Assembly: GCA_921293015.1 (NCBI GenBank) | Contig: OV121083.1 | Coordinates: 30,806,908-30,870,907 of the forward strand | Reading direction: 5' to 3' | DNA: 64,000 nucleotides | DNA from: Phorcus lineatus | Lineage: Eukaryota > Mollusca > Gastropoda > Trochida > Trochidae | In this document: piece by piece, positions 52,074 through 57,384 of the stretch | How positions within the stretch are numbered: the first letter of the stretch is position 1 | Layout of the letters: every line of letters begins with the position of its first letter | Made by a program: the position numbers and the translations under genes | The notes under the pieces: generated by a model | Seen by the model: the letters and a program-made list of their open reading frames with translations, nothing else | Databases searched by the model: none | Told to the model about the DNA's origin: nothing

Positions 52074-52926
52074 GTGGCAGAGAATACAAGAAGAGCTTAC
52101 AAGTCTGCGCTCAACTCCTATGAAACCTTCTGCAAGAGTACAAGTTTAGAAGATCTATGGCCAATTTCCCTACAGCACCTATCAAGGTATTTAGGTTATC
52201 TATCACATAAAGGATTTTCATCAGCAACCATGGCCCAACATATGTCAGGATTGGGTAGAGAACATAGGCTGAAGATGATGTCGGATCCGACAGATAACTT
52301 TATCGTCAGAAAAATCATCAAAGCCATGAAAAGTAACAACCCCTCAAGATAGTAGAGCTCCCATTACCGTCACTCTACTTACGAAGTTACTAAACGCCCT
52401 ACCAAAAGTCTGTTCGTCATCTTTCGAAGCGTGCCTATTTCAGTCAATGTTTACAATTTCATTTTTTGGCTTTTTGAGAATAAGCAAATTAGTCCCCGCA
52501 GAGCCAGGAGCAGATACAGGTTTACTGCTCTCAGATGTAAAGCTGCAGAAATCGTTCATCACTCTTCGAATACGGTTTTCAAAGACGAATCAGGCAGGTC
52601 ATCGTACTGACATACAAATAGCTGAACATAGCACCAGTATTTGTCCAGTCAAACGACTAGAAACCTATTTGGAATGCAGACCCAAAACAACATCAGCGCC
52701 GCAATTGTTTCTACATTTCAATACCAAGCCGGTCACTCAGTACCAGTTCAGGGCAGTCTTGGCAAAATCGCTAAGATTTATAGGTGAATCAACACAATCC
52801 TACAAATCACATTCGTTTCGCATTGGCGCTGCAACAACAGCTACACTACAGGGTGTTCCTGAACGGACCATAATGGAATGGGGCAGGTGGCGTTCCCCGG
52901 CAGTTCGAACCTACATTAGAACCTAA
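52074..52926 (+). pseudogene. DIRS-like tyrosine recombinase, fossil part
   Basis: The N-terminal SAM-like DNA-binding part (NTRRAYKSALNSYETFC, LSRYLGYLSHKGFS) is at 52074-52352. The catalytic part at 52447-52926 has FLRISKL with the first Arg, SHSFRIGAATTATLQGV with the His-x-x-Arg box, and WGRWRSPAVRTYIR with the Tyr. Such recombinases integrate the circular DNA copy without an integrase. The region is broken and is described only as a fossil. Confidence 0.85.
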
Positions 52927-53080
52927 TAGGTAATATCTTGCTTGTGGTCGTGCTAACCCTTTACATTTTGCAGATGTTTGGATGATTGGCTCGCCTATAG
53001 TCCACTGGGCGCAAAGACTGGCAACTTCGACACCGGGTGCCGTGAACCTCGGTCTAGATGATCAAGATATATGATATATG

Positions 53081-56000
53081 ATCTGATAGCTGCTAGTGCA
53101 CTAAATTTGACGAAATCCAAGATGGCCGCCATCGCCAGCTCGAAATACTTATAACTGTCGTATCGTCAAAACTAGTTGAGTAATATCTGAAAATAAGGTG
53201 TCTAAACCTATGTTTTTGAGGTCAGGAAACCCATTTATCATATTATATTTCATGTATGTTTACTTATATTACTTAAATTTTAAATATCAGCGTGTATTTT
53301 GAAAAAAATACAAGATGGCCGCCAGTCATGGATAAAAATGATGAACATCATCCTCATTACAATGTCATTTAATTATCTTCTTTTACATGTCAATCTAAAA
53401 AAGAAATAAAAATATCATACGACGACTATCAATGTAGCAACATATGAAAGTAGTCTTGCGCCGAGTAGTACCCGAGCCGCCATGTTTGTTACAGAAGACG
53501 CAATTTGTCAGGCAAGGATTTCATCAAATTAAACAGAATTTAACACAGGAAAGGTATGCAAATCTATTTTCTTAGATTGTTTTCATCCTCAAAACATATA
53601 ATACATTGTAATTCTAAAGAAATACCTTTTATATCGAAAAAAATAAACAATAAAATCATACCTCCCTCCATTCAAACTTTTCAACAATGATACTGTTTTT
53701 CTCTCAACTTACTCCAATGACCTAATCTTTTGGATACCTTAAACGAACCAAGAATTTAAAATATGGAAAAGGTGTGTTTGAAAGTAGCTTTAAAAGAGGT
53801 ATATATAATGGAATATGTTAATTGATAATTACTTTAATTTTCTTCCCAGGTTGCAGACAGGTACTGGGCAGGAATTTACAGTGACCTGTTTATTAAACAA
53901 GTGCTCATGAAGAATGTTAAGGCGGTTGGGGGTCTTACAAGAGGTCGAGGATTTGAGCAGTCAACAAGTCTGTTGTGGTTGCTATCCACTCCTGTATGTG
54001 CAGAGGTCACCAAGGCTATGGAAATGGTTACTGATATTCAAGATAACAAAGACACAGAGTTTCACAAGGACATGTCAGTGGCTTGGATTGCAAGAGACGC
54101 AAAAGATGTACTGACAATACGGACTATTTCTCAGAGCGGCAACCATTTGCACAGAATTCAAAGGAACTACGAAGTCTCTCATCTGGACTTGTCGGTGACA
54201 CATCTGTCAATGCTGACAGCAGACACAGTTGGGCAGGCGATCTTTAAGTCAATGCAAGGCAAAACTGTAGCTGAGTACAAGTTCAGCAAGAAGGATCAGG
54301 TCAGCACTCTAGCCTCATCCACCTACATAGCTGTTGAGGGGGAACGCCTTAGGATCGATCCAAAACAGCTTATTCAGCGGCTTGTGGTCGCTTGGTAGAG
54401 GAATAATTGACACTCAGACCTTGTTCACATATGAACTATCTTCCTACCCAACAGCTCTCTTCGACAATAGTCTTTTGATGCGTTTGCCAGACAAGGCCAG
54501 TCTTCAGACTTGCATCGTGAAGAGGGTACCTTCTTGTGTTGAAACCGAATCACATGAAGATGTGATGTACGTCCTTGATGGTGGTGCTCTCTTGCAACGC
54601 TTACCATCGCCAAGTCAGACAACGTATGCCAACCTATCAAGTATCTATGTCAAATATGTGACTCACTATGGTCATGCTGCTGTGGTGTTTGATGGTTACG
54701 AGAGTGGTCCCACTACAAAAGATTAGACACATCAAAGACAAAAAGGCTTCCACATCTTTGGCGCAGAGGTAAATTTCAAATCCAATATGCACCTGACAAT
54801 GACAAAGAAGGCATTCCTTGCAAATCCAAAGAACAAACAGAAAATACTCTACTTCATTGGCAGTGAGATGGAAAAAGCAGGGATTACAGTCTACTACAGC
54901 TCTGGTGATGCCGACTACGACATTGTGAAGACTGCATGTGCGATGACTATGAGATGTCCTGTGAAAGTAGTCGGGGATGATACAGACCTGTTGGTCTTGC
55001 TTCTTCACCATTCATGTCCCAGACATCATGTCATGTATCTGCTGACATCAACCAAAGTAATCAACATTCGGACCCTAAAGAGTGGAGTAGATCATGACAT
55101 CCTTGCAACTGTACTCTTCACACATGCAATCACTGGTTGTGATACAATGTCGAGACCATAATGGCATAGGAAAGATAATGGCCTTGGGAAAAGCTCGTCA
55201 ACTCAAGGACCATGCTAGTGAGTTCATAAAACCAAATCAAAAGCAGAATGACATCAGTATGCATGGTCAGGCAGCTCTTGAAGTTTTGTATGGCTGTACT
55301 TTTGGAAACAATCTTGACTTTGAAAGAGCAGCAAGGTTCAGCAGCAAAGTGGCGTCAAGATCAGTCTATCTACCCCCTGAATCCCTTCCACCTACCACAG
55401 ATTCAGCCAAATGTCACAGCTACAGGGTCTATCATCAAGTTCAAACATGGTTGGGTAATGATCTTGATGCAACCGAATGGGGATGGAAGATCTACAGATG
55501 TCGAAATGAGAGACTTAAGCCATTGAAAATGAAAAAAAGATGCTGCGCCAGGATGTTTGATGAAGCTAGTGAAATGTAACTGCCATGGCAAATGAGACAA
55601 AAAGACCTGTTCATGTCGTAAAAATGGACTGTTGTGCTCCTTGGCATGTGGACACTGAAGAGGGTTTGCTTGCTTTAATGCTGTTACAACTGAATCAGCA
55701 GAGAACTAGTTATGAAAAAAGGAAACACAGAACGTTTGCATCATCAAGGTTACCCAGGTGCCATGAACTGTTCAATTCTTGTTAGGAATTCAAATTGTTT
55801 TTCATCTGATACCGAGAGATGGTTTATTTTGGTACTACCTACTGTATAAGAAACAATTGATGTGAATTAGACCTTTTAAATCTATTTCTTAGATTTTTTA
55901 GTGACTGACATTTGAGTTGAAATGTTTGCTTGATACAGATCATTGCCGAATGGTTTGTTTACACTCTGTTGATAATATCCTTTTTATAAAAAGTCAGTAG

Positions 56001-56328
56001 TTGATATCCTTTCTGTGAAGACAATGAACCATACCAAAATATTTGCCTAATTCTTATGCTGCTTATCTTGTTCTGAAATTGGTATGGCGGCCTTCTTGTA
56101 TTTTTTTCAAAATACACACTGATATTTAAAATTTAAGTAATATAAGTAAACAAACATGAAATATAATGTGATAAATGAGTTCCCTGACCTCAAAAACATA
56201 GGTTTAGACACCTTATTTTCAGATATTACTCAACTAGTTTTGAAGATATGACAGTTTTGAGTATTTTGAGCTCGCGAAGGCGGCCATCTTGGATTTCGTC
56301 AAATTTAGTGCACTAGCACCTATCAGAT
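53081..56328 (+). mobile_element. TIR element encoding a FEN/XPG-like nuclease with CXC tail
   Basis: Left arm 53081-about 53323 and right arm about 56084-56328 are about 245-bp inverted copies that begin ATCTGATAG, continue TGCTAGTGCACTAAATTTG and AAATCCAAGATGGC, and end inward with ATACAAGATGGCCGCC. Only one gene is recognisable between them (53850-55660). The element sits inside the SGNH part of the DIRS-like fossil, which reads on beyond it at 56530. A clear target duplication was not found. No DDE transposase is present, so either the nuclease-like protein is itself the mobility factor, or it is cargo and movement is supplied in trans. Confidence 0.75.
53850..55660 (+). pseudogene. FEN/XPG-like (PIN-fold) nuclease with CXC domain
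   Basis: The protein starts after a splice acceptor (TTCTTCCCAG at 53840-53849; possible donor AAG/GTATGC at 53553) with VADRYWAGIYSDLFIKQVLM, then GGLTRGRGFEQS. Further on come VLDGGALLQRL (about 54570), VVFDG (54682-54696), GDADYDIVKTA (from 54904), VVGDDTDLLVLLLHH (about 54967), HAITGCDT (to 55146) and GIGK (55163-55174). This order of Asp-bearing motifs followed by a GIGK helix-hairpin resembles FEN1/XPG nucleases. The end (55575-55660) has CNCHGK, CSCRKNGLLC and CG, a CXC-type metal-binding tail. Related proteins, as I recall them, are widespread 'uncharacterized' genes in invertebrates. This copy needs frame changes near 54370, 54720-54780 and 55150 and has stops in the tail, so it is dead. 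The family name is unknown to me. Confidence 0.7.
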
Positions 56329-56419
56329 TTTGCTAGATTTTTGTTCCTGGTTTGTAGACATGATTTCCTGGCATAATCAGGTGAGAAACAAAATAAAGCA
56401 ATTTTGTCCAACCAAACTG

Positions 56420-56527
56420 CCTTTTTTTACTTCGTTTACTGGACCATAAGGTGATCTTAAGTCCTTAAGGTAACCTTAGTGCAATGTTAAAGTATGGGAG
56501 TTAAGGTTAACCTTAGTTAAGGTTGCT
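56420..56527. repeat. AAGGTTA-rich MITE-like fragment
   Basis: AAGGTAACCTTAG, GGTTAACCTTAG and GGTTGCTTTGTGAAAGC form overlapping inverted words. GCTTTCACAAAGCAACCTTA-type ends are typical of small non-autonomous elements in bivalve genomes as I remember them. It lies in the DIRS-like fossil directly before the second SGNH piece. Boundaries are approximate. Confidence 0.4.
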
Positions 56528-56900
56528 TTGTGAAAGCAGGCCCTGGGGTCAAATGATCTTGTGGATGAAGGTGGAAAACGTTTATGCGAACTCATTGAAA
56601 GTGATATCCAGAGAATTTCAAGACTCATGCCGCATACAACATTAGTTTGGTCTGACATGCTGCAAAGAATCCACTGACGAGGAGCAATGAATGGTGCTGC
56701 AATTGAGCGCAAGCGGAAACGCGTTAACAGTACGCAGCATTGGCCATATCCAATCAAGGGGGTTTTATAATCAAGCATTGCAACTAAGCAAAGATGTGGA
56801 TAATTACAGAGATCCGTTGTTGGATGGAACCCACTTGTCAGACAGCGGTAATGATATCTATTTACATTCATTAGCTAATGCTTTAAAATCCCTTCTTTAA

Positions 56901-57384
56901 ATTTATTTCAATATTTCCAGTCATGCTATTTGTGGGGCACATTCTTGTATAGACAAGAAGTTTTGGCAGGCAGTCTGGGGACCAAATGCATCTCTGGTAG
57001 TATATTTTAACTCCTTCTCCTCACTTCCAATAAATTTAAAGGAGCTCTTTGCTGTGTTACCCGCCAAAACTCCACATCTTTAACACACTTAGTAATTAAC
57101 AGGTAATGAGATACCCTTCCTGCTTATTCCTCTCCTATTTAACCTAATCTTTTCATGTAACACCAGTCAGTGTGCAACTCCTGCTGGTGCTCCCTCTCAT
57201 CTATTTACAGATACTACCAGGGTGCATGCATATCTCTCATACTGATTTTGTCGGCCTATCGATGTGACGGCCTCATCGGTTGCTTATCGTTGAGTCGGGC
57301 CTATGGAGGTGAAGGAATCCTAGGTCGTTGTTTGAGTCCGGCCTTTCGATGTGATTACCTCCAAGTACTTTTCATGTCATATAT
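56901..57384. other. Spacer, nothing recognised
   Basis: Possible outer sequence of the DIRS-like fossil on the left and of the Polinton-like fossil on the right. The phrases GTCGGCCTATCGATGTGA and GTCCGGCCTTTCGATGTGA recur about 85 bp apart, a short degenerate tandem repeat. Confidence 0.4.

Follow-up and report, generated by a model that had tools for sequence, protein, structure and literature searches.

A decayed inverted-repeat transposon of Phorcus lineatus as a probable deletion derivative of an AcademX-like element with a transposase and a FEN-fold nuclease

The inverted-repeat element analysed here lies in a stretch of 64,000 nucleotides of the Phorcus lineatus genome (G000:C5:30806908-30870907, hereafter the window) and is best explained as a dead, non-autonomous deletion derivative of a cut-and-paste DNA transposon with terminal inverted repeats (TIRs), most likely from AcademX, a lineage within the Academ superfamily, a reading to which we assign a probability of about 0.85. 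Its membership in AcademX rests on architecture and target duplication, and the element is likened to Academ by description only. An earlier note on this DNA had suggested that it might be a copy of a TIR transposon group that is driven by a FEN/XPG-like nuclease and has no transposase; the TIR transposon copy and the FEN/XPG-fold motifs stand, but the nuclease-driven group does not, and what was claimed as a new transposon class is explained as a deletion derivative. From its N-terminus onward, the protein of the complete element would consist of a region containing cysteines, a DDE (RNase H-like) domain into which a long helical stretch is inserted, a FEN/XPG-fold nuclease and finally a tail rich in cysteines.

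The window copy and its insertion site

The window copy (labelled L028 among the loci of the 957.8 Mb genome searched) is bordered within the window by two inverted arms of 244 nt, at 53081-53324 and 56085-56328, which are 94% complementary. The inverted ends of about 245 bp described in the earlier note are thus real, but the true ends lie further out, at 56446 on the right: comparison across copies demonstrates that the termini begin TAGTCCAGTAAA, outside the 244-bp arms. The outer part of the left end of the window copy, about 108 bp by analogy with L014, is gone (Table 1).

The coding remains of this copy are decayed. Five motifs of the nuclease, VLDGG (54571), VVFDG (54682), GDAD (54904), GDDTD (54973) and GCDT (55135), share one common frame, whereas GIGK (55163) is read in a different one and the transposase-side remnant in a third, apart from both; moreover, stops were found within the matching stretches in the genome search. 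Because of these several frames and stops the gene must be considered broken, though arms and motifs are real, and what had been described as a single spliced gene retains all six motifs but is not intact. The cysteine tail is likewise recognisable, with 41 of 41 positions covered by tblastn against a full-length relative, but it is interrupted by stops and its Pfam support is below threshold. As a whole, the earlier observation is confirmed for the arms, the motifs and the tail and not for an intact gene, an only gene or a single clean insertion.

ORF1 of the full copies, described below, is absent from the window copy, and the first two DDE-type acids are gone with it, while a K stands at the site of the conserved E (IKQVLM, 53892-53909). 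Compared with L010, the deletion connects element position 775, at window 53855, with a point in the middle of ORF2, and both breakpoints carry the 2-bp microhomology CA.

Table 1. Features of the window copy and its surroundings (window positions), and copies of the 1,479-aa family (genome positions).
Feature	Position	Strand	Remarks
Retroelement fossil, left flank	52330..53067	+	DIRS-like, tyrosine-recombinase and SGNH labels are those of the earlier note, by eye
Left TIR, inner 244 bp only	53081..53324	+	outer ~108 bp from TAGTCCAGTAAA absent here
Internal deletion junction (ORF1 and first part of ORF2 removed)	53854..53857	.	2-bp microhomology CA, versus L010
Remnant of C-terminal part of transposase domain and linker to nuclease	53856..54570	+	E position is K
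Decayed FEN/XPG-fold nuclease core	54571..55200	+	six motifs, GIGK out of frame
C-terminal cysteine cluster remnant (CXC-like), with stops	55515..55706	+	match to residues 735-798 of P0001
Right TIR to terminus	56085..56446	-	inward reading starts TGGTCCAG, one change versus TAGTCCAG
Right part of ~120-bp MITE-like repeat	56447..56541	.	~95 bp; outer border approximate
Same retroelement, right flank	56542..57000	+	94 bp of L045 missing between flanks
1,479-aa family, L029	G000:C12:41752331-41756719		
1,479-aa family, second copy	G000:C7:866539-870927		
1,479-aa family, third copy	G000:C13:49461831-49466219		

The earlier claim that the block interrupts a retroelement is borne out by all three retroelement copies that were fetched (L044, L045 and L046, out of six other matches), which run across the site without the block: the window matches them up to 53067 and then again from 56542 (L045, L046) or 56554 (L044). 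However, the block did not move as a unit. The 94 bp of L045 situated between 53067 and 56542 are missing from the window, and about 95 bp at the right edge belong to another repeat, which displays the inverted ends GGGCCT.. / ..AGGCCC and has at least 32 matches at 97-100% identity among the 40 scored of 1,656 candidates, suggesting a recent spread. Five of these copies were fetched. At the point corresponding to the start of the transposon in the window, all five run on to the left into an identical stretch of 21 bases, the repeat side starting with TAAGG. As these copies share this sequence beyond the junction, the element was inserted in the MITE-like repeat, and for this reason, together with the missing retroelement sequence, entry into the retroelement as one unit was rejected. 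The first three bases from 56447, TAA, probably represent one surviving copy of a 3-bp target duplication. Paired MITE-like repeats were also observed side by side at G000:C17:33336548-33336764 and G000:C12:45951590-45951798, with the second copy less similar.

The following history is proposed for the window copy. ORF1 was lost through an internal deletion at the 2-bp microhomology; the copy would have inserted, in trans if after the ORF1 deletion, into the MITE-like repeat inside the retroelement fossil; the left terminus would have been lost later. Most simply, one later deletion would have removed the 94 bp of retroelement, the left part of the MITE-like repeat and the ~108 bp of the left TIR together.

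Full copies and relatives in the same genome

A search of the genome with the left arm returned 34 matches, some of them weak and two being the window's own arms. Twenty loci holding 30 of the 34 matches were fetched, the other four being weaker. At 10 of the 20 loci, window included, arms match in the two orientations, and the ends were examined in nine of these ten (L016, with partial arms, was left out). One terminus is missing in L012, L015 and the window copy, and all six two-ended copies are flanked by a perfect 3-bp target duplication (TAT, TTG, AAA, TTT, TTA and TAT); the TIR search and flank comparison proposed in the earlier note thus did yield a duplication of fixed length.

The full copies have inverted ends of about 360 bp. 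Similarity among copies extends ~108-118 bases beyond the 244-bp arms at both ends, and immediately after the first 12 bases the two outer stretches differ from each other both in length and in sequence. The ends align over their inner ~336 bp at 96-98% in L009, L010, L011 and L014, and in L013 at 93%. L010 and L011, each of 6,429 bp, differ at 13 positions (99.8% identity) and have different duplications, TTG and AAA respectively. Both contain two long open frames, ORF1 (734 aa) and ORF2 (798 aa), the latter being a relative of the window nuclease; in L009 the 734-aa frame is open and the second is split. The nuclease is consequently not the only gene of the element, as had been stated: ORF1 is deleted in the window copy and present in full copies.

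Gene content varies among the 20 loci. ORF1 sequence is present in 11 and sequence of the FEN region in 10 (32 to 295 of 295 positions), while six have neither. FEN sequence occurs without ORF1 in three (L015, L020 and the window, L028) and ORF1 without FEN sequence in L017, L024 and L025; L018 likewise has no FEN sequence within the fetched region, which is cut by the locus edge, and the genome search shows FEN-region sequence beyond it. This mixture looks like ordinary internal deletion and not like a nuclease-only family.

The alternative that this is a TIR group moving by a FEN/PIN nuclease without a DDE transposase draws on those copies in which the nuclease side has survived better: L015 retains nuclease and tail and has neither ORF1 nor the transposase part of ORF2, of which just 151 of 294 positions remain in the window copy beside its nuclease and tail, and L020 shows fragments of nuclease and tail without ORF1. 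The alternative is contradicted by the full copies with the same TIRs, which carry both halves, the conserved D-D-E half included, open in the near-identical pair L010/L011, a finding that answers to the one by which the earlier note said its reading would be refuted; by the junction of the window copy itself, which is a simple internal deletion; and by the reverse case of L017, L024 and L025, where ORF1 is kept without nuclease sequence. We consider this alternative highly improbable, and the deletion derivative is retained as the explanation of the window copy.

The two halves are moreover read in a single stop-to-stop frame in other relatives of the same genome, namely L029 (1,479 aa), L030 (1,536 aa) and L031 (1,381 aa). 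The 1,479-aa family comprises three copies with the frame open that are 98.8-99.5% identical in the element sequence beside the gene, and all three carry TAGTCCAG on either end and are flanked by 3-bp duplications (ATA, TCT and TAT, read by eye in the printed flanks); to judge from these sequences the family has likely been mobile recently. In L010, intron-like GT..AG borders are visible by eye both in the stretch separating the two frames and beyond them, and the full 6.4-kb element probably encodes a single spliced protein, with putative introns and a length of about 1,500 aa.

The nuclease is thus the C-terminal domain of a transposase-type protein and not a cargo, which the earlier note had considered as an option. 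Since full copies carry the D-D-E half, the nuclease neither replaces the transposase nor is it a separate passenger; a nuclease-only group and a nuclease cargo were both rejected on the grounds that full copies carry both halves and that the junction in the window is an internal deletion.

The DDE-type and FEN-fold domains

The protein carries a putative DDE transposase domain, according to the conservation of its acids and their place in a predicted structure; two of the three acids lie in the first half, which the window copy lacks. In alignment A1 (20 rows, some of them near-duplicates; residue numbers refer to the L029 protein) the acids are conserved in the rows that span them: D434 in 12 of 12, D593 in 14 of 15, with one gap, and E862 in 13 of 13. 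In the AlphaFold model of the domain (mean pLDDT 75.6, pTM 0.79) the first D lies within a strand and the second immediately behind one, and the E belongs to a helix that comes after a long stretch made up entirely of helices. A D in a strand, a D after a strand and an E in a helix after an insertion is the layout of RNase H-like DDE transposases, and the acids of the modelled domain occur in this order.

Foldseek returned nothing significant for the DDE model (best E 0.62), and its top 25 include Transib and RAG1 chains at probability 0.02-0.12 among unrelated proteins; the DDE profile matched solved structures at chance level only, and phmmer searches of solved structures with P0001 and P0002 were not informative. 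In Pfam scans of seven proteins the only transposon-relevant match was DUF6589, which remained below its cut-off of 27 bits in three of the seven (21.6, 19.9 and 18.7 bits) and was absent from the results for P0002, L030, L031 and L033; no KDZ or other named transposase model was found in the same scans, and a search of NCBIfam returned nothing informative.

The C-terminal domain is a nuclease of the FEN/XPG/XRN fold as judged from profile, model and motifs, in agreement with the identity proposed in the earlier note. The profile built from alignment A2 (nuclease, 18 rows) matches human Exo1 with an E of 0.0033 over profile positions 166-360; in this alignment FDG, the two acids of DTD and GCD..GIG fall on the motifs of Exo1 itself. 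Foldseek relates the predicted structure, with probability 1.00, to Xrn2, a plastid exonuclease, Exo1, FEN1 and XPG, and the TM-scores, taken across the entire model, are low (for the listed chains of FEN/XRN type, 0.21-0.36 by query length). The mean pLDDT of this model is 66.6; its core blocks mostly reach 79-95 and its loops 44-65, with poor values for the first ~120 and last ~60 residues. The acids of VLDGG, VVFDG, GDAD, GDDTD and GCDT are conserved with the exception of one gap at VVFDG, the first D of GDDTD being D in 10 rows and E in five. In fold, as modelled, and in the position of its acids the domain is similar to the 5' nucleases of the FEN/XPG/EXO1/XRN group, but those are host enzymes of repair or RNA decay, whereas here it is a domain of a transposon protein.

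In the cysteine tail, the cysteine pattern is conserved in the alignment rows that reach it. PF03638 (CXC, Tesmin/TSO1-like) matches below threshold in P0001 (E 9.5) and in L033 (E 0.0076, 17 of 23.5 bits), and is not listed for L029, L030 and L031 at E up to 1.

The DDE domain would cut at the TAGTCCAG ends and join them to the target with a 3-bp stagger, and the FEN domain would process the flanking or 5' strand. These may be two-nuclease transposases, with the DDE site cutting the 3' ends and joining them, and the FEN domain either producing the 5' cut on the second strand or trimming flaps at ends and target, a proposal we advance tentatively and regard as rather less probable than its converse; if true, it would account for the joint conservation of FEN and DDE acids. 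The near-identical 6.4-kb copies, whose frames are open and whose 3-bp duplications are clean, are suitable material for studying what the fused FEN-fold nuclease contributes to such transposition.

Relation to Academ elements

The nuclease of AcademX elements is of the XPG type. Within Academ, according to PMC10045372, AcademH elements produce target duplications of 9 or 10 bp and AcademX elements of 3 or 4 bp, a difference that seems tied to the encoded helicase and nuclease. With AcademX, as it appears there, the element shares TIRs, a 3-bp target duplication and a transposase with an element-encoded nuclease: duplications of 3 bp were found in six of six two-ended copies and in three of three copies of the 1,479-aa family, and the nuclease is identified as FEN-fold by profile, model and conserved acids. 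The window copy differs from AcademX in being without the transposase half and the left terminus, and the ~360-bp ends, the TAGTCCAG termini and the CXC-like tail are features of this element that lie outside the likeness by description. AcademH belongs to the same superfamily, but there a helicase is combined with duplications of 9-10 bp, where here there are a FEN-fold nuclease and 3 bp; no helicase model was found in the Pfam scans of seven proteins. Academ elements are also reported, in PMC10294476, to be abundant and long in bivalves, with a mean of 5,565 bp, to which the 6.4 kb observed here is near.

A protein of transposase plus FEN nuclease could instead belong to a superfamily other than Academ, either KDZ/Zisupton-like or an undescribed group. 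The likeness to AcademX by description and not by sequence would allow for this, as would the presence of Transib and RAG1 as the transposases among the weak Foldseek matches; on the other hand, the combination of transposase, nuclease and 3-bp duplication is that of AcademX in PMC10045372, the Pfam scans of seven proteins gave no KDZ or other named transposase model, and Academ is reported as a long class in bivalves in PMC10294476. We regard a different superfamily as unlikely, and AcademX remains the preferred placement.

Passages of PMC9587614, PMC5753468, PMC10799480, PMC9143410 and PMC4455052 name Academ and leave AcademX without description, and nothing informative was found in the papers searched on XPG with Academ or transposons, or on DUF6589. 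Viral contigs scanned with six short patterns gave no match.

A more diverged branch of the same protein, represented by L032, L033, L038 and L039 at ~28-36% identity, is also found in this genome, indicating that several old lineages coexist in it.
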